From an uncultured Bacilli bacterium (lineage in GTDB: Bacteria > Bacillota_I > Bacilli_A > RFN20 > CAG-826), in NCBI GenBank assembly GCA_905235515.1, contig CAJOLV010000020.1:1-38074 (forward strand): a stretch of 38,074 bases of DNA, in the 5' to 3' direction. The first letter of the stretch is position 1; each line of letters opens with the position of its first letter. The position numbers were made by a program, and so were the translations under genes. The notes below the pieces were generated by a model. It was not told the origin of the DNA. It saw nothing but the letters and a program-made list of their open reading frames with translations, and made no database searches. Shown here piece after piece: positions 5,007-20,334 of this stretch.

Positions 5007-5084
5007 TTAGCGATAAAGGCAAAACCACAATGATGTGGTGATGCAAAACTACAGGGTTTTTGTGGGGAAGATAGCCAGCTGTCG
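5007..5084 (+). ncRNA. Degenerate c-di-GMP-I riboswitch (GEMM-I), upstream copy
   Basis: The core matches the GEMM-I pattern: GATAAAGGCAAAACC, a P2 hairpin (CCACA / TGTGG), GATGCAAAACTACAGGG, and AAGATAGCCAGCTG. The ligand-contacting G of GGCAAAACC and the intercalating-A segment are present. It departs from the second copy at structural points: the P2 loop is ATGA instead of the GAAA tetraloop, GACGC has become GATGC, and the P1 stem keeps only about four pairs. A TTGACT (4960-4965) with TATAAG at 4987-4992 may be its old promoter, with an overlong spacer. No terminator follows; broken coding sequence begins at once. Confidence 0.8.
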
Positions 5085-5089
5085 AAGAA

Positions 5090-5477
5090 TAGAAGATCGG
5101 TGTTGCAGAGTATTATTATCAAACATCTTCAGATCCTGCTCCTGTGGCTACTACAGAAGCAGCAATTGAAAGATATTTTGAAAATAGTAGCGCTTTCCTA
5201 TCTACAATGTTATTGGAATATCACTATCTAGTAGCAGATTCTTCAACAAAAATTTATCCAACAGGCACTGCTGTTTGGTCTAATTCTGGTGATACACCTA
5301 CTTTAATTTCTCACGCAATCTCTACGACTACAAACACTGCTGATGTATCTATAAATTATGTAGTGACATTACTTTTTGAGAGATGGTGATGTTGTTGATA
5401 GAGGTTTTTCTTGTGAAACGGAATTTAGTTTAAGAACTAACAACAAAAATAAAAAAGTAGAAAAATATTGCAAATAA
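5090..5477 (+). pseudogene. Broken gene behind the first c-di-GMP riboswitch
   Basis: The frame reads ...AEYYYQTSSDPAPVATTEAA and continues to FERW and a stop at 5387-5389. Shifting one frame near 5372-5385 gives a clean continuation, LRDGDVVDRGFSCETEFSLR ... KVEKYCK, that ends at TAA 5475-5477. The 5' end also lacks a start, ribosome binding site and signal sequence: coding sequence abuts the riboswitch. The simplest reading is a deletion that removed the expression platform and N-terminus plus a later frameshift. The remaining Thr/Ser-rich text looks like the end of an exported protein, but I do not recognise the family. A GTG at 5144 could start an 81-residue product, which I think is fortuitous. 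Confidence 0.65.
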
Positions 5478-5482
5478 ATAGC

Positions 5483-5488
5483 TATTAT
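5483..5488 (+). promoter_or_regulatory. Candidate -10 box of the second riboswitch transcript
   Basis: TATTAT lies 7 bases before the P1 stem of the second aptamer, placing a start at about 5494-5496, exactly where the aptamer begins. The -35 region (around 5460-5465) is poor. An alternative pair, TTGCAA (5468) and TAAAAT (5491) with a 17-base spacer, would start inside P1 and is less likely. Confidence 0.35.
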
Positions 5489-5495
5489 CATAAAA

Positions 5496-5600
5496 TAGTG
5501 GCGATAAAGGCAAAACCGCAGAAATGCGGCGACGCAAAACTACAGGGTCTTATTATTGTAAGATAGCCAGCTGCCACTACATTAATGGGCTGGTTTTTTT
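5496..5600 (+). ncRNA. c-di-GMP-I riboswitch (GEMM-I) with terminator expression platform
   Basis: The aptamer spans 5496-5579. P1 is TAGTGGC / GCCACTA (5496-5502 with 5573-5579), P2 is CCGCA-GAAA-TGCGG with a proper GNRA loop, followed by GACGCAAAACTACAGGG and the AAGATAGCCAGC segment. The base aligned to the guanine-contacting position is G, which favours c-di-GMP over cGAMP. The expression platform is an intrinsic terminator: AGCCAGC (5565-5571) pairs with GCTGGTT (5589-5595) and runs into seven T (5594-5600). The 5' arm of the terminator is part of the aptamer, so ligand binding should block the terminator and turn the operon on. It controls the two AWF-motif genes from 5607. Confidence 0.92.
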
Positions 5601-5606
5601 CTTATC

Positions 5607-6572
5607 ATGAACAGGTCGGGAAGCAAAAATTTGAAGATAGCGTCCGCCACAATGATGGCGATTTTTTCCTTGATGGCCTGTTTTACTGCTACCTATGCTT
5701 GGTTTAATGCCGTTAAAAATAAAAGTTTTGGTGTTGATAATTTTGGTGTTGTCGCGGTCGATACTTCTGTAACCGCGATTTCCGTTCATCAATTTTTAGG
5801 CACTAGTGATGATGGAAATAGTTATTGTTTCAACCCCACTCCTGATCATTCTATTGTTTGGGATGATGGTAGTGGCACTGATTCTACAGGTTTTACCATG
5901 GATACTTATTCCTTGAACGATCCTCACCATCCAGTTTTATTCTTATTTGCTGTTTCTGGCATTTCACAAGTTATCGATTTAGTCACTGATTACAGTTATT
6001 TAGCTAACGATGAACCTGAATCCACAAAAGAAGATGTGGCAAATTACGATGCTTTAATCGCTGGAACATATGTTAATAATGACATTATCCAAGTTGATAA
6101 TGATAATCGTCATGGTGGTTCTAAGACTAAATATAAATATGTCGTTCCCTCTGAAGGAGACCCATATTTTGAAATGGTCTGGATTGATATTGCTTTAAAT
6201 AATAACCCTTTAAGCTCTATTATCGTTTCTCATTATTTTTTATTTGAAGATGATCCTTCAGATAACGAAGGAACTTATCAAAAGCAAAACAAAGTCATTA
6301 ATGAAGTTTCAACATCATGTCTGCCTATTGATGTCAGTGGTTTTTTAGATTCCAATAGTGCGTCTTTTGTAGAATTTGATGGAAATAATGTTAATTTTAA
6401 TAAGAGAGTCAAACTTTTTGATGGTGATATTTCGGGAATGACACATATTGGTATTGTTGTTGATTATTTCAATGAATCATTAGAATATATTTATTCTTTC
6501 TTTTTAGGCCACGATGCCTTGAACAATGAAAATGGCCTCCATTTTAGATGTGATTGGACCATGGAGATATAA
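5607..6572 (+). CDS. Exported AWF-motif protein under c-di-GMP riboswitch control
   Basis: A 321-residue protein beginning with a short basic stretch (MNRSGSKNLK), one hydrophobic segment (about 11-30) and then ATYAWFNA. A membrane segment followed by A-W/Y-F recalls the SipW-type signal peptides of TasA/camelysin-like matrix proteins, but I see no further TasA domain evidence. The mature part is rich in Asp, Asn and Ser, suggesting a beta-sheet surface protein; it has no LPxTG and no C-terminal membrane anchor. The ATG lies just six bases after the T-run of the riboswitch terminator and has no Shine-Dalgarno sequence. The next gene starts two bases after its stop, so the two are co-expressed. 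Its exact function is unknown. Confidence 0.8.
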   Translation: MNRSGSKNLKIASATMMAIFSLMACFTATYAWFNAVKNKSFGVDNFGVVAVDTSVTAISVHQFLGTSDDGNSYCFNPTPDHSIVWDDGSGTDSTGFTMDTYSLNDPHHPVLFLFAVSGISQVIDLVTDYSYLANDEPESTKEDVANYDALIAGTYVNNDIIQVDNDNRHGGSKTKYKYVVPSEGDPYFEMVWIDIALNNNPLSSIIVSHYFLFEDDPSDNEGTYQKQNKVINEVSTSCLPIDVSGFLDSNSASFVEFDGNNVNFNKRVKLFDGDISGMTHIGIVVDYFNESLEYIYSFFLGHDALNNENGLHFRCDWTMEI

Positions 6573-6574
6573 AG

Positions 6575-9500
6575 ATGAAAAAAGGTTTACAAAAAACTTT
6601 AGTGTTTGCTTTACCATTTATCTCCCTTACAACTCTTATCGTAGGTACTTTAGCGTGGTTCCGTTCCATTATCAAAATTAATTCAATTAATGGTGGTGGT
6701 GCAGTCGACAGTGCCTATTATGCCTATGGTAAAGGAACAAAAGATGAACCTTTTGGCATCGCTAATACCAGACATCTAAATAACCTTGCATGGTTACAAT
6801 ATCTTGGTGTTTATGATAATGACAATTATTATTTTGAACTCGCTAACGACATCAATGTCGGTGAAAGTACTTATGTTATTCCCCCTATTGGTAATGAAGA
6901 CCACCCCTTCATCGGTGTCTTTAACGGTAATGACCATGTCATTGAAAACATTAAAGTAACCAATACCTCTAATGTAGCAGAATTCACTTATAAATCATCT
7001 AATATCACTGATTATAATTCCAATGATTTTGAGATCGTAGGTTTCTTTGGCGTAGTTGGAGAACTTGAAGGAGAATCATATTCTTCACAAGTTAACACCA
7101 TTAAAGATGTTACATTTAAAAATCTTACTGTTGAATCTAAAACCGAAAATACATTAATCGGTCTTGCCGCTGGATATGTAAATGCAGATATAAGCAATGT
7201 AAAGATTGATGGCACAGCGACAATTAATGTTAATGACCAAGTTCATACCGCCAAAACAAATATCACCGATAAATTATCCGATTATGGACTAGTGGGATAT
7301 ACAACAAAAGTTGGAAGTAATGGCTCATATAGCACAGACTTATCTGAATATTTCAATAGTGGTGATGGTACTGGTGGCGGTGGCCAAGAACAAGACTGGG
7401 GTGGATCCATAGTTTCGACAGATTATTTCAAATGGCTACATCAAAGCGGAAATATTGCTACTCAAACCGGTGTTACCGTTACTGGAACAGGCTACAAAGG
7501 GTATTACAATAGAGCATCAAATGCTTCAGAAATGCCAGATGATGATTCTATGCTATTTCGAAATTCCTCGACTAGGTATTTTAGGCTGTATTCTGATGGC
7601 ACTTTTTATTTTAAATATAATGCATCCACAAACTACACAGGTAATTACGAGAATAATCCAAGCGCTCCTAATATAATAGGATACAAACTGATGTTTGATA
7701 ACGAGATTACATTAGGTACTGGGACATCTAGCGTGACTTCTAACACTTTTTATCTAAATAAGCAAAATTCAGGTGCGAATTTTGTTGTCACATCCACAAT
7801 GAACTCTACGACAACAATCAATGGTTTTTCTAGCACCTTTACAATAAGATCTTCGTGGATTTATCAGTTTAGAGAATCATCGTATTTGCCGTTGCGTTTT
7901 GAAAACGAAAATTGGATTTCGAATGGAACAAACAATACTGTTTCAAGCAAAAACACCGGATATATTTTGGGCAATCAAGGAACCGCTGGTTCAAACGCTT
8001 CGGTTCGTCTTGCATACTATTGCCGCTCAAATCTTATCAATTCAATTTCTCCGAGCCACACAGATTCTTTAATTAACATTTATAATGGACACTTTTTAGA
8101 TGAACAGTTTAATGAAGATAGAATAGAAATTTTAACTTATGATAAGAATGAGGATGATTGGGTTTTAATAAAAGATGACTGGAATGGAAGTTACGACGCA
8201 GATAATCCGGCTCTCGCAACATATGCAGATACAAAAACAGATGATTCGTCTCCAAAAAGTCTCGGCTTTACTAAATATGATAATTCGCGAAATATTCTAT
8301 CAAATGAGGTGCTGAGCACGATGTTCCTAGGCGGCATTCACTTTGATCCGACGGCAAATAATTATGGAATTGGGCAAGGAAACAATTTAGAAACGTATTC
8401 AAATTGTAAAGTTTTAAGCGATACCGCTTCAAGTTATCAGATGCCTAGAGGAACAATTGATTTCAAACTTAAATCTACAGGTGCTATTAATTTCTTTGCT
8501 GGAACGTATTACTCAAGCGATGTAAATTTCACTTTCTTTTCAATTTATGATGTGGTTCGAAAAACAGATGGCACTATTAACACTCTTAAAGAAATAACAA
8601 AAATATTCACTGCTAAAACCACCGCCGTTGCTGGTGGAACTTTTGATACTTCAAAGCCTTCTGATTCAAAAACAAACACCAAATATATATACCAGTACAT
8701 TGATGGGTCTTATTCACAAATATATGACCCTTCACCAAGTGTTAAAGCTCTTCGGAATGCAACTGCTGCTGATATTGATAATAATAATCTAGTATTTGAC
8801 TGCACATCATCTCTTAAAGCGCAAGCGCCTGTCAAAAACGCCCTTTATTATTTTGAATTACCTGTTAATGATGGTGAATTTGCAATGAGTAGTGTTAGTG
8901 GTTCTACGCTTTCTGGTGCTTATTTACTTTATCTTGATATTGGCGCTAACGCCGACATCATCGATTCCGATGAAATAACTGCTTACTCTATCACAACTAA
9001 GAGAAGCGGAAATCAATATCCTCAAGGTGTTGATTTCATCGCTACTGATGTTGCGGGTAATGGTGGAGAATCCGTTGGTGTTTATATTTCAAATAGCAAA
9101 CAAGGACAATTAGTGTTTGTTGTTACATCTAAAAACATTGCTATTACAGATAATTCAGATATATCAACATTTACTTTTGAAGGAACTGATTATACGGACG
9201 CTGCAAGTCCTCCTGATGGTAAATTTAATATTACATCTGGAACATCACCTGGGCCGATGGAGTCACCTCCTGTAGGTGGAGAAAGAGTTCTATTTATCAA
9301 TATTAAGAAAGTGAATAGTACGACTGTATATGGCGTTAAAATTACCGACTATCTTGATTCATCGGGCAACATCGATGAATCAGAATCAAAATATGAGATT
9401 GATTATGATGATGGCATGGGATTCATAGCTGGCAAAACCAAAGCTGAAGTTGAAACCTTATCTACATCACTTGATATTGCCGAATTACGAAGCCTAAATA

Positions 9501-9706
9501 TCGCGGCGACATTAACAAGAATACCTGGCTACGATGCTGAATTCTCCGTTACATATAATGTTGCTGATTGTAGTTATTCTGAAAAAACAATTGATATTGA
9601 TATTGCCACTAACGGAGTGTCATTAACTATCATAGTTAATACCGATGAAGGGTATACGCTTAAAGTTAATGGTAGTACCCCTGTTAGTCCATATCCTGGT
9701 ACCTAA
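6575..9706 (+). CDS. Large exported AWF-motif surface protein with GLUG-like region
   Basis: This protein of 1043 residues starts at ATG 6575, chosen over an upstream TTG because GGAG sits eight bases before it and MKKGLQK gives a proper signal sequence. One hydrophobic segment (about 9-28) ends in GTLAWF, matching the upstream partner. Residues 45-240 carry a segment such as IPPIGNEDHPFIGVFNGNDH and EIVGFFGVVGE, resembling GLUG-type beta-helix repeats of surface proteins. The remainder is a long Ser/Thr/Asn/Gly-rich beta-type region with no sortase motif and no terminal membrane anchor. A Gly-rich GTGGGGQEQDWGG stretch near residue 265 separates the modules. It forms an operon with the 5607 gene and ends at the terminator at 9711. 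A role as adhesin or matrix protein is inferred. Confidence 0.82.
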   Translation: MKKGLQKTLVFALPFISLTTLIVGTLAWFRSIIKINSINGGGAVDSAYYAYGKGTKDEPFGIANTRHLNNLAWLQYLGVYDNDNYYFELANDINVGESTYVIPPIGNEDHPFIGVFNGNDHVIENIKVTNTSNVAEFTYKSSNITDYNSNDFEIVGFFGVVGELEGESYSSQVNTIKDVTFKNLTVESKTENTLIGLAAGYVNADISNVKIDGTATINVNDQVHTAKTNITDKLSDYGLVGYTTKVGSNGSYSTDLSEYFNSGDGTGGGGQEQDWGGSIVSTDYFKWLHQSGNIATQTGVTVTGTGYKGYYNRASNASEMPDDDSMLFRNSSTRYFRLYSDGTFYFKYNASTNYTGNYENNPSAPNIIGYKLMFDNEITLGTGTSSVTSNTFYLNKQNSGANFVVTSTMNSTTTINGFSSTFTIRSSWIYQFRESSYLPLRFENENWISNGTNNTVSSKNTGYILGNQGTAGSNASVRLAYYCRSNLINSISPSHTDSLINIYNGHFLDEQFNEDRIEILTYDKNEDDWVLIKDDWNGSYDADNPALATYADTKTDDSSPKSLGFTKYDNSRNILSNEVLSTMFLGGIHFDPTANNYGIGQGNNLETYSNCKVLSDTASSYQMPRGTIDFKLKSTGAINFFAGTYYSSDVNFTFFSIYDVVRKTDGTINTLKEITKIFTAKTTAVAGGTFDTSKPSDSKTNTKYIYQYIDGSYSQIYDPSPSVKALRNATAADIDNNNLVFDCTSSLKAQAPVKNALYYFELPVNDGEFAMSSVSGSTLSGAYLLYLDIGANADIIDSDEITAYSITTKRSGNQYPQGVDFIATDVAGNGGESVGVYISNSKQGQLVFVVTSKNIAITDNSDISTFTFEGTDYTDAASPPDGKFNITSGTSPGPMESPPVGGERVLFINIKKVNSTTVYGVKITDYLDSSGNIDESESKYEIDYDDGMGFIAGKTKAEVETLSTSLDIAELRSLNIAATLTRIPGYDAEFSVTYNVADCSYSEKTIDIDIATNGVSLTIIVNTDEGYTLKVNGSTPVSPYPGT

Positions 9707-9710
9707 TATT

Positions 9711-9767
9711 AAGGGGCTGTTCGAAAACCCATGAAGTAAAATGAGTAAAAGGGACAGCCCTTTTATT
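9711..9767 (+). terminator. Terminator of the AWF operon (possible small inverted-repeat element)
   Basis: AAGGGGCTGTT (9711-9721) pairs over 11 positions with GACAGCCCTTT (9753-9763), with GU wobbles, followed by TTTTATTATG. The loop of about 31 bases is large for a terminator. The ends (GGGGCTGTTCGAAAAC and the inverse of GTAAAAGGGACAGCCC) resemble terminal repeats of some insertion sequences, so a tiny MITE acting as terminator is possible. Confidence 0.65.
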
Positions 9768-18450: not shown

Positions 18451-19125
18451 ATGCTAAACAATATCAAAACATGGAATGAATTTTTTAAGATAATCCAAAC
18501 AAAGGATTATTCTGTTTCACTACATAAATTTTTGGATAAACAATATAGAGATTTTACATGCTACCCACCGCGCGAACTTTTATTCAATGCATTTAGACTC
18601 ACCCCATTAAAAGATGTAAAAGTTGTTATCATTGGACAAGACCCATATCATGAACCAGGTCAAGCAATGGGATTATCTTTCTCTGTGCCGAAAGGAATTC
18701 AAGTCCCTCCATCATTAATTAACATTTATAAAGAGATAGCAGATGAATATAAAACAACAGTTGATATGAGAAGTGGGGATTTGACCTACTTAACAAAACA
18801 AGGAGTGCTCCTTTTAAATTCTATTTTATCCGTTAGAGCACACGAACCAATGAGTCACAACATTCCTGAATATGATCTTTTCTTTAATGATGTATTAGAG
18901 GTGTTAGATAGACAAACTCATCCAATTGTTTTTATGCTCTGGGGAAGTTCAGCTCGCAAATTTAAAAAATACCTCCACAATCCGAGTCACTTAATATTAG
19001 AGTCGGTTCACCCTTCTCCTTTAGCGGCTAATCGTGGAGGTTGGTTTGGCAATGGTCATTTTGCGAAAGCTAACGAATATCTCCGCAAAAACGGCGTAAA
19101 AGAAATAAAATGGACTAATCTTTAG
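18451..19125 (+). CDS. ung: Uracil-DNA glycosylase
   Basis: Family 1 uracil-DNA glycosylase, 224 residues, the normal length. It removes uracil from DNA to start base-excision repair. The water-activating loop GQDPYH is at 62-67 (catalytic Asp64), the uracil-pocket LLNSILSVR at about 121-129, and the DNA-intercalation loop HPSPLAANRGGWFG at 187-200 with the conserved His187. The fold is complete. It is a single gene with a predicted leaderless start and it overlaps the convergent thiT gene by 11 bases; no separate terminator is visible. Confidence 0.97.
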   Translation: MLNNIKTWNEFFKIIQTKDYSVSLHKFLDKQYRDFTCYPPRELLFNAFRLTPLKDVKVVIIGQDPYHEPGQAMGLSFSVPKGIQVPPSLINIYKEIADEYKTTVDMRSGDLTYLTKQGVLLLNSILSVRAHEPMSHNIPEYDLFFNDVLEVLDRQTHPIVFMLWGSSARKFKKYLHNPSHLILESVHPSPLAANRGGWFGNGHFAKANEYLRKNGVKEIKWTNL

Positions 19126-20170
19126 CGATTTGTTTCTTTCTTCTAATTAGTATTGAATAAATCAAATAATAGATTGCTAACGCTAAAAGCACTAATGCAA
19201 CACCGAACCAGATCCAATGGTTAGTTAGGTATGTTAGGTCTTCTTTTTTAACATAACCTCTAATTAATCTAGCAAGGCCAAAGACAAATGCTGTTGAAGT
19301 AATAAATGTTAAAGCGCTCGCGGTATTAACATATGTATATTTATCTAATCTTACTTTGATGAACCCATTTATGCCTGTTAGCATAAGCATTAATCCTAAA
19401 ATAAAAATTAACATACTATCTGGATCAAAATCATAACCATATGTATACTCATCAGCGTAATCTAAAAAACTTCTAATGTAACTAATCAAAAAGAACGTAA
19501 AGAAGAAAGCTCCAATAAAAACAAAGCTGATAGAAGAGATAAGTGGAAAAAGGTTTTTCTTATGACTATTATCTTCTTGAATCTCATTTTTAACTTCAAA
19601 TATGCGTGGTGCATTAATATACATCACTGATAACAAACCACTTGATAAAACAATAGATGGTCCGATAAATGCAAAGTTATAAATAAAGCAATATAAATAA
19701 ACATTCATGCTGTTTAAATTCCAAGCAAAATATTCTGGATTATTAAAGAAGATTACTCCGGAAAGATAGTGCATTAGCAATTTTGCCAATCCACCAACCA
19801 CTGTGCTAAGAATTAAAAATCCTAATTTGCCTTTTCTACTTTGCGAATTATTGAACAATGGTCTAAATAGACCAGCTATGCCTACAACCGCATATGGCAA
19901 TATATAGTCAAGCAACAATTGCGCTGGGTGTACTATATATGCGCTTGTCGCAATATCTAATAACCCCATGATTAAACCGGTTAATATACCTGGTAGCCAT
20001 CCTCTTCTATAAGAAATGATGATTACTGCAATCATGGCAAAGCCAATAGACCCGCCATAAATAAAAACACCTTTTGACAATATTCCTTGTAATTCATCAA
20101 GGGCGAAACCGATTGCGGCAAATAGTCCGATTTCACACATTGTCCTAATGGTGTTAGAAGATTTGTTCAT
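19115..20170 (-). CDS. thiT: Thiamine ECF transporter S component ThiT, with C-terminal membrane extension
   Basis: From ATG 20170 (MNKSSNTIRT), preceded by GGAGG at seven bases, the protein has 351 residues. An upstream in-frame TTG would put the start inside the riboswitch terminator and is rejected. Residues 1-190 match ThiT, the thiamine-binding S component of energy-coupling-factor transporters: six hydrophobic segments and the block SIGFAMIAVIIISYRRGW, then TSAYIVHPAQLLLDYILPY. ThiT is normally about 190-200 residues. Here about 150 further residues (about 200-351) add four membrane segments with a Tyr/Asp-rich outer loop (YADEYTYGYDFDPDSM), unlike any ThiT I know. Control by a TPP riboswitch directly upstream supports the thiamine assignment. 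Confidence 0.88.
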   Translation of the reverse strand: MNKSSNTIRTMCEIGLFAAIGFALDELQGILSKGVFIYGGSIGFAMIAVIIISYRRGWLPGILTGLIMGLLDIATSAYIVHPAQLLLDYILPYAVVGIAGLFRPLFNNSQSRKGKLGFLILSTVVGGLAKLLMHYLSGVIFFNNPEYFAWNLNSMNVYLYCFIYNFAFIGPSIVLSSGLLSVMYINAPRIFEVKNEIQEDNSHKKNLFPLISSISFVFIGAFFFTFFLISYIRSFLDYADEYTYGYDFDPDSMLIFILGLMLMLTGINGFIKVRLDKYTYVNTASALTFITSTAFVFGLARLIRGYVKKEDLTYLTNHWIWFGVALVLLALAIYYLIYSILIRRKKQIAKD

Positions 20171-20191
20171 AAAAATACCTCCAAAATAAAA

Positions 20192-20207
20192 CCCCTCAAA
20201 CGAGGGA
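20192..20207 (-). terminator. Terminator of the TPP riboswitch expression platform
   Basis: On the minus strand CCCTC-GTTT-GAGGG is followed by GTTTTATTTT. The CCCTCC just upstream can pair with GGAGGG at the 3' end of the aptamer (20222-20228), an antiterminator that TPP binding would prevent. This makes TPP an off-signal for thiT. Confidence 0.8.
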
Positions 20208-20212
20208 GGGAA

Positions 20213-20300
20213 AAATTGAAGTCCCTCCGCTAGCATTACCTAGATCAGGTTTGGTCGGTCCGAAGAAGGACCCTCTCAGCCAAATTCGTTTAGCTCCCAA
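20213..20300 (-). ncRNA. TPP (thiamine pyrophosphate) riboswitch
   Basis: Read on the minus strand the leader shows GGGAGCTAAA, a P2 stem AGCTAAA / TTTGGCT, the conserved GGCTGAGAGGG, a P3 hairpin GGTCC / GGACC, AAACCTGATC, and the P4/P5 part CTAGGTAATGCTAGCGGAGGGA. These are the invariant CUGAGA and CCUGAUC...UAAUxC..GCGxAGGGA blocks of the THI-box. It precedes thiT, its usual target. Confidence 0.96.
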
Positions 20301-20305
20301 AAACA

Positions 20306-20334
20306 ATAATAGTTTTGATTTGTTAATTTGTAAA
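20306..20334 (-). promoter_or_regulatory. Promoter of the TPP riboswitch-thiT transcript
   Basis: Minus strand TTTACA (20334-20329), 17-base spacer, TATTAT (20311-20306). The predicted start at about 20299 coincides with the first bases of the aptamer. Confidence 0.7.

Follow-up and report, generated by a model that had tools for sequence, protein, structure and literature searches.

Does the RNA element that precedes two genes for exported proteins in an uncultured gut bacterium respond to c-di-GMP, and what does it switch? The locus lies in a stretch of 38,074 nucleotides (contig CAJOLV010000020.1), hereafter the window, from a genome (G000) of 1.2 Mb in 49 contigs that is 92% complete. The original prediction had placed it in a Mollicutes-like bacterium, a label that was borne out: no PBP transpeptidase was matched in G000, and one was found in six of the 224 family genomes. 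This family of uncultured gut bacteria is apparently wall-less. The reading of the locus that we consider probable as a whole is that of a transcriptional ON riboswitch, opening an operon of exported surface proteins upon c-di-GMP.

The aptamer, on the + strand at positions 5499–5578, matches Rfam RF01051 (GEMM-I, c-di-GMP-I) with 63.6 bits and an E-value of 2.4e-10, the gathering score of the family being 35 bits. Thus, the covariance search returned the significant match that the original prediction had called for, and the intact GEMM-I aptamer with terminator that it had described before two genes is indeed present. In an alignment of 63 family copies, 98.9% of the cells in the aptamer helices are paired, and these helices contain 116 double-change cells, compared to a mean of 34 in shuffles. 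The G preceding CAAA, which we take to be the equivalent of G20, is invariant in all 63 copies. The copy at 5499 retains the conserved positions and is overlapped by a terminator; covariance score, covarying helices, and an expression platform in which aptamer and terminator are mutually exclusive all place it in the GEMM-I class. A sigma-70-like promoter match (TTGCAA-17-TAAAAT, + strand, 5468–5496) lies immediately upstream, but it is weak and no better than chance. Two more GEMM-I copies are found elsewhere in the genome, at C1:51477 and C35:2883. The search for c-di-GMP-II riboswitches gave no match in the family; its positive control was silent too, so that absence is not established.

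The intrinsic terminator (+ strand, 5565–5603) consists of a 5′ arm, AGCCAGCTG (5565–5573), which is at the same time the 3′ strand of the aptamer, and a 3′ arm, GGCTGGTT (5588–5595), followed by a T run. The same arrangement recurs in the family: an anti-aptamer terminator with a score of at least 9 was found in 53 of 102 loci, against 2.6 expected from shuffled leaders, by a looser scan with shuffle control, and a stricter scan retained 40 overlapping cases out of 102. About half of the loci fall under the threshold, some of them with weaker forms of the same helix. One variable position of the terminator helix, left out of the scoring, is occupied by T-A in 34 cases, T-G in 10, C-G in 17, C-A in one, and other combinations in 11, which represents a compensatory change (Fisher p 1.6e-7 over the four classes, an optimistic value given that the loci are related). 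Folding of the window RNA yielded two states of similar energy; hence, the direction of switching rests on layout and covariation, and the covarying aptamer and terminator arms support an ON switch. At low c-di-GMP, strand AGCCAGCTG would pair with GGCTGGTT, and transcription would stop at the T run before gene 1; with c-di-GMP bound, the strand would be held in the aptamer, no terminator would form, and genes 1 and 2 would be transcribed.

A second GEMM-I-like aptamer, overlooked by the original prediction, lies upstream on the same strand (5008–5086; Rfam GEMM-I, 47.9 bits; alignment A3). It departs from the family in having GCTGTC for GCTGCC, GATGCAAA for GACGCAAA, and a loop ATGA for GNRA, and the C to T change presumably falls at the equivalent of the ligand contact C92 (Vc2 crystal structure numbering). 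Moreover, the terminator scans found no overlapping terminator at this copy, and the short open frame that follows it (5144–5389, + strand, from the ORF list), a possible gene relic, has no homologue among the compared family loci. On account of these altered positions, the missing terminator, and the homologue-less frame, we read this copy as probably decayed.

The two genes behind the intact switch encode proteins of 321 residues (gene 1, 5607–6572, + strand) and 1043 residues (gene 2, 6575–9706, + strand; the length is counted from the ATG, the ORF list giving 1050 residues from a TTG at 6554). Both products start with the membrane segment that had been predicted for them, ending in TATYAWF in gene 1 (A31 W32 F33) and in VGTLAWF in gene 2 (A27 W28 F29), and both display the signature of SipW substrates, that is, a positively charged start, a hydrophobic stretch, and an A followed by aromatic residues. 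A31 and W32 are invariant in the gene-1 alignment (24 sequences), as are A27 and W28 in that of gene 2 (22 sequences). Both proteins would thus be exported by means of a hydrophobic signal ending in A-W-F, with cleavage at a SipW-type site. The model of gene 1 is confident and shows a beta-rich secreted domain (pLDDT 82); its Foldseek matches are meaningless (best E-value 0.034, probability 0.04), no solved structure being matched. Gene 2 has a long exported part beginning with a beta-helix-like domain (residues about 44–222; 6704–7240, + strand), which matches PDB 3n6z, a putative immunoglobulin A1 protease of Bacteroides ovatus, both by profile (E 6e-7) and by fold (Foldseek E 9.8e-4, probability 1.0). 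The organisms are unrelated, and the likeness covers only part of the N-terminal region, the remainder of gene 2 being matchless. In the model, pLDDT is about 80–90 in the core of this domain and poor beyond about residue 245. Pfam holds no family for either gene. The suggested likeness to TasA found no support: searches for membership of the TasA/camelysin group gave no Pfam match and no TasA profile match in the PDB, Foldseek returned nothing confident for gene 1, and neither product is demonstrably TasA. Most likely, the mature small beta-rich partner and the giant protein starting with a beta-helix would assemble into an adhesin or a filament at the surface of the wall-less cell.

Behind gene 2, a putative operon-end terminator was recognized by eye (GGGGCTGT...ACAGCCC-TTTT, + strand, 9713–9764); it has a long loop and was not listed by the + strand terminator scan, which allowed loops of 3–8. 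It stands between the operon and the polysaccharide genes. The latter had been predicted as an adjoining cluster and are real (about 10.1–18.4 kb), but nothing was found that connects them to the riboswitch or supports a control shared with the operon. The window also harbors a tmRNA gene (1265–1658, Rfam) and, on the - strand, a TPP riboswitch (20205–20310, 57.2 bits) just upstream of the gene for a membrane protein of 373 residues (19115–20236).

The distribution of these elements was then checked in the family. GEMM-I is present in 110 of the 224 genomes and GGDEF in 125; the two occur together in 105 genomes (odds ratio about 99), GEMM-I stands alone in five and GGDEF in 20, and neither was found in the remaining 94. 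The five genomes with GEMM-I and no detected GGDEF are G078 and G220–G223; the G078 copy is the top-scoring of all and has no AWF gene behind it. The set of GEMM loci comprised 100 from the family and the four of G000 itself, 101 of them being informative. A loose rule for the SipW-type segment was satisfied at 84 of these 101 loci, and a strict AW rule applied to the first two genes at 76, against none of the 285 ORFs sampled over 300 kb of G000. Further GEMM-I copies before AWF proteins, expected by the original prediction, were therefore found both in the genome and across the family.

Most of the informative loci outside the strict rule precede variants of SipW clusters or c-di-GMP enzymes. 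On reading, several of the 17 that fail the loose rule (e.g., L069, L090, L102, L106, L124, L127, L135, L136, and L139) appear to be variants of the same operons. In four others (L057, L084, L119, and L130) the aptamer stands before a gene with a GGDEF motif and in L097, which L094 resembles, before an EAL domain gene; L053 seems to have degenerated, and L088 bears no relation to the rest. The position of these aptamers before GGDEF and EAL genes may reflect a feedback on c-di-GMP itself. The two-gene layout was retrieved by script at 29 loci, 28 of which are distinct, since the window operon was counted twice. Probing GTDB genomes with gene 2 returned 54 loci, many of which came from gut samples, ruminant ones included, and in 39 of the 54, counted from the table, a GEMM precedes the gene on its own strand.

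In G000, both full-length gene-2 homologues stand behind a GEMM. The two-gene operon occurs a second time on C35, behind a DDE transposase (L008, 899–2365). In the C1 cluster (L007, L209), the GEMM comes after the gene of a cyclase whose GGDEF motif is intact, that of an AWF protein, and a small gene; it is followed by four AWF or related genes, an AAA-domain gene, a gene of 679 residues, a SipW-like peptidase, and an EAL gene. The intergenic gaps are short, except for 117 bases after the gene of 316 residues, and the GEMM-headed genes are likely to lie on a single transcript. The candidate peptidase, a protein of 281 residues, matches NF046067 with an E-value of 6e-10 and 39 bits, which is below the curated cut-off of 190; the EAL phosphodiesterase gene (L209, 1747–3300) overlaps the end of its gene. 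In several SipW clusters, the SipW gene is immediately preceded by an AAA_5 gene and a gene of 470–680 residues (L007, 13840–17415, and relatives), the latter with a DUF2357 match in L043. SipW-like matches occur in 160 of the 224 family genomes.

These data agree with the SipW-type reading of the AWF segments, as the genome encodes a candidate for such a peptidase, itself within a GEMM-headed cluster. They also fit the claim that the window lacks GGDEF and EAL proteins and that the signal must come from elsewhere in the genome: matches to these domains are confined to C1, C19, and C23, with one intact GGDEF cyclase and four EAL matches, one of them weak. Since the peptidase ends a second GEMM-headed gene run, c-di-GMP should turn on the peptidase and its substrates together. 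The cyclase gene just upstream of the C1 switch would close the circuit, and the EAL gene overlapping the end of the SipW gene might provide a negative feedback on c-di-GMP.

Could the aptamer sense another cyclic dinucleotide, such as 3′,3′-cGAMP? Other bacteria do have GEMM-I variants whose ligand has changed, and the five genomes with GEMM and no detected GGDEF would fit such a variant; nevertheless, the invariance of the presumed G20 equivalent, the strong co-occurrence of GGDEF and GEMM, and the aptamers preceding GGDEF and EAL genes in relatives make this very unlikely. Still slightly less probable, in our opinion, is that the window switch no longer functions, being a remnant, and that the operon is unregulated or silent. 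The adjoining aptamer at 5008–5086 is visibly decayed, with a damaged frame behind it, but the 5499 copy keeps its conserved positions and overlapping terminator, genes 1 and 2 are long intact frames, and the operon layout recurs at the 28 distinct loci mentioned above. The reading as a functional c-di-GMP switch is therefore preferred.

The nature and the fate of the products leave more room for alternatives. Parallel beta-helices are also found in polysaccharide-active enzymes and the only annotation of 3n6z is that of a putative IgA1 protease, so that the products might be glycan-active or other exported beta-helix proteins rather than adhesins; no catalytic domain was found in gene 2 by Pfam and profile searches, and a paired small beta-rich partner under a control shared with SipW suits surface assemblies, which renders this possibility rather unlikely. 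We assign a similarly low weight to the idea that the AWF segment stays uncleaved and anchors the proteins in the membrane by their N-terminus, so that they are tethered and not released as SipW substrates. A wall-less cell needs some anchor, no obvious LPXTG motif or hydrophobic anchor was seen at the inspected C-termini of the giants, and the cleavage at AWF is only predicted. On the other hand, a SipW-like peptidase gene ends a GEMM-headed run of AWF genes, SipW-like matches are widespread in the family, and an A ahead of aromatic residues is in keeping with SipW sites, the P2′ residue of TasA being an F (PMC10269814). Hence, export through a SipW-type route and a role as surface adhesin remain the preferred reading of these proteins.

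GEMM-I ON switches for adhesins are already known and the kind of switch described here is not new. The Bc2 RNA of Bacillus thuringiensis turns on the collagen adhesin Cap by anti-termination in response to c-di-GMP (PMC4933901). The locus studied here shares with Bc2 the GEMM-I class, the anti-termination layout, and a target that is probably a surface protein, and since its terminator layout matches that experimentally shown ON switch, we infer the ON direction here as well. Bc2, as portrayed there, acts in a walled cell on a wall-anchored adhesin, whereas here the proteins are of the SipW-exported type and the family appears wall-less; the regulon here, unlike that described for Bc2, includes a SipW-like peptidase and c-di-GMP enzymes. 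A dedicated SipW-type peptidase whose gene lies with those of beta-rich exported matrix proteins is likewise known from SipW-BsaA of Clostridium perfringens (PMC7395162) and SipW-TasA of Bacillus subtilis. BsaA is controlled by the two-component system BsaRS, compared to GEMM-headed operons here, and neither system is described with a giant beta-helix partner, while the present proteins matched TasA neither in sequence nor in fold. Lastly, Acholeplasma laidlawii, for which 14 GGDEF and EAL proteins are reported, is a wall-less bacterium with both types of protein as well; the section of that account at hand describes no readout or riboswitch (PMC2408644), whereas here an RNA with recognized target operons would serve as the readout.

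No PilZ domain was found in G000 or in any of the 224 family genomes. PilZ is the commonest protein receptor of c-di-GMP; its absence from these genomes implies that RNA may be the main reader of this messenger. We propose, tentatively and with less assurance than for the switch itself, that in this wall-less family GEMM-I RNA is the chief c-di-GMP receptor, mainly activating SipW-exported surface assemblies and the enzymes of its own turnover. Other protein receptors, e.g., degenerate GGDEF or EAL domains, may act alongside it. A literature search, with most subscription papers outside its reach, retrieved no paper on this combination.

In this large uncultured gut group, one regulon would tie a second messenger and its RNA receptor to a dedicated export route. 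This, in turn, suggests a lineage in which c-di-GMP is possibly read mostly by RNA, and the use of c-di-GMP by wall-less bacteria becomes directly testable by in vitro work on the RNA.
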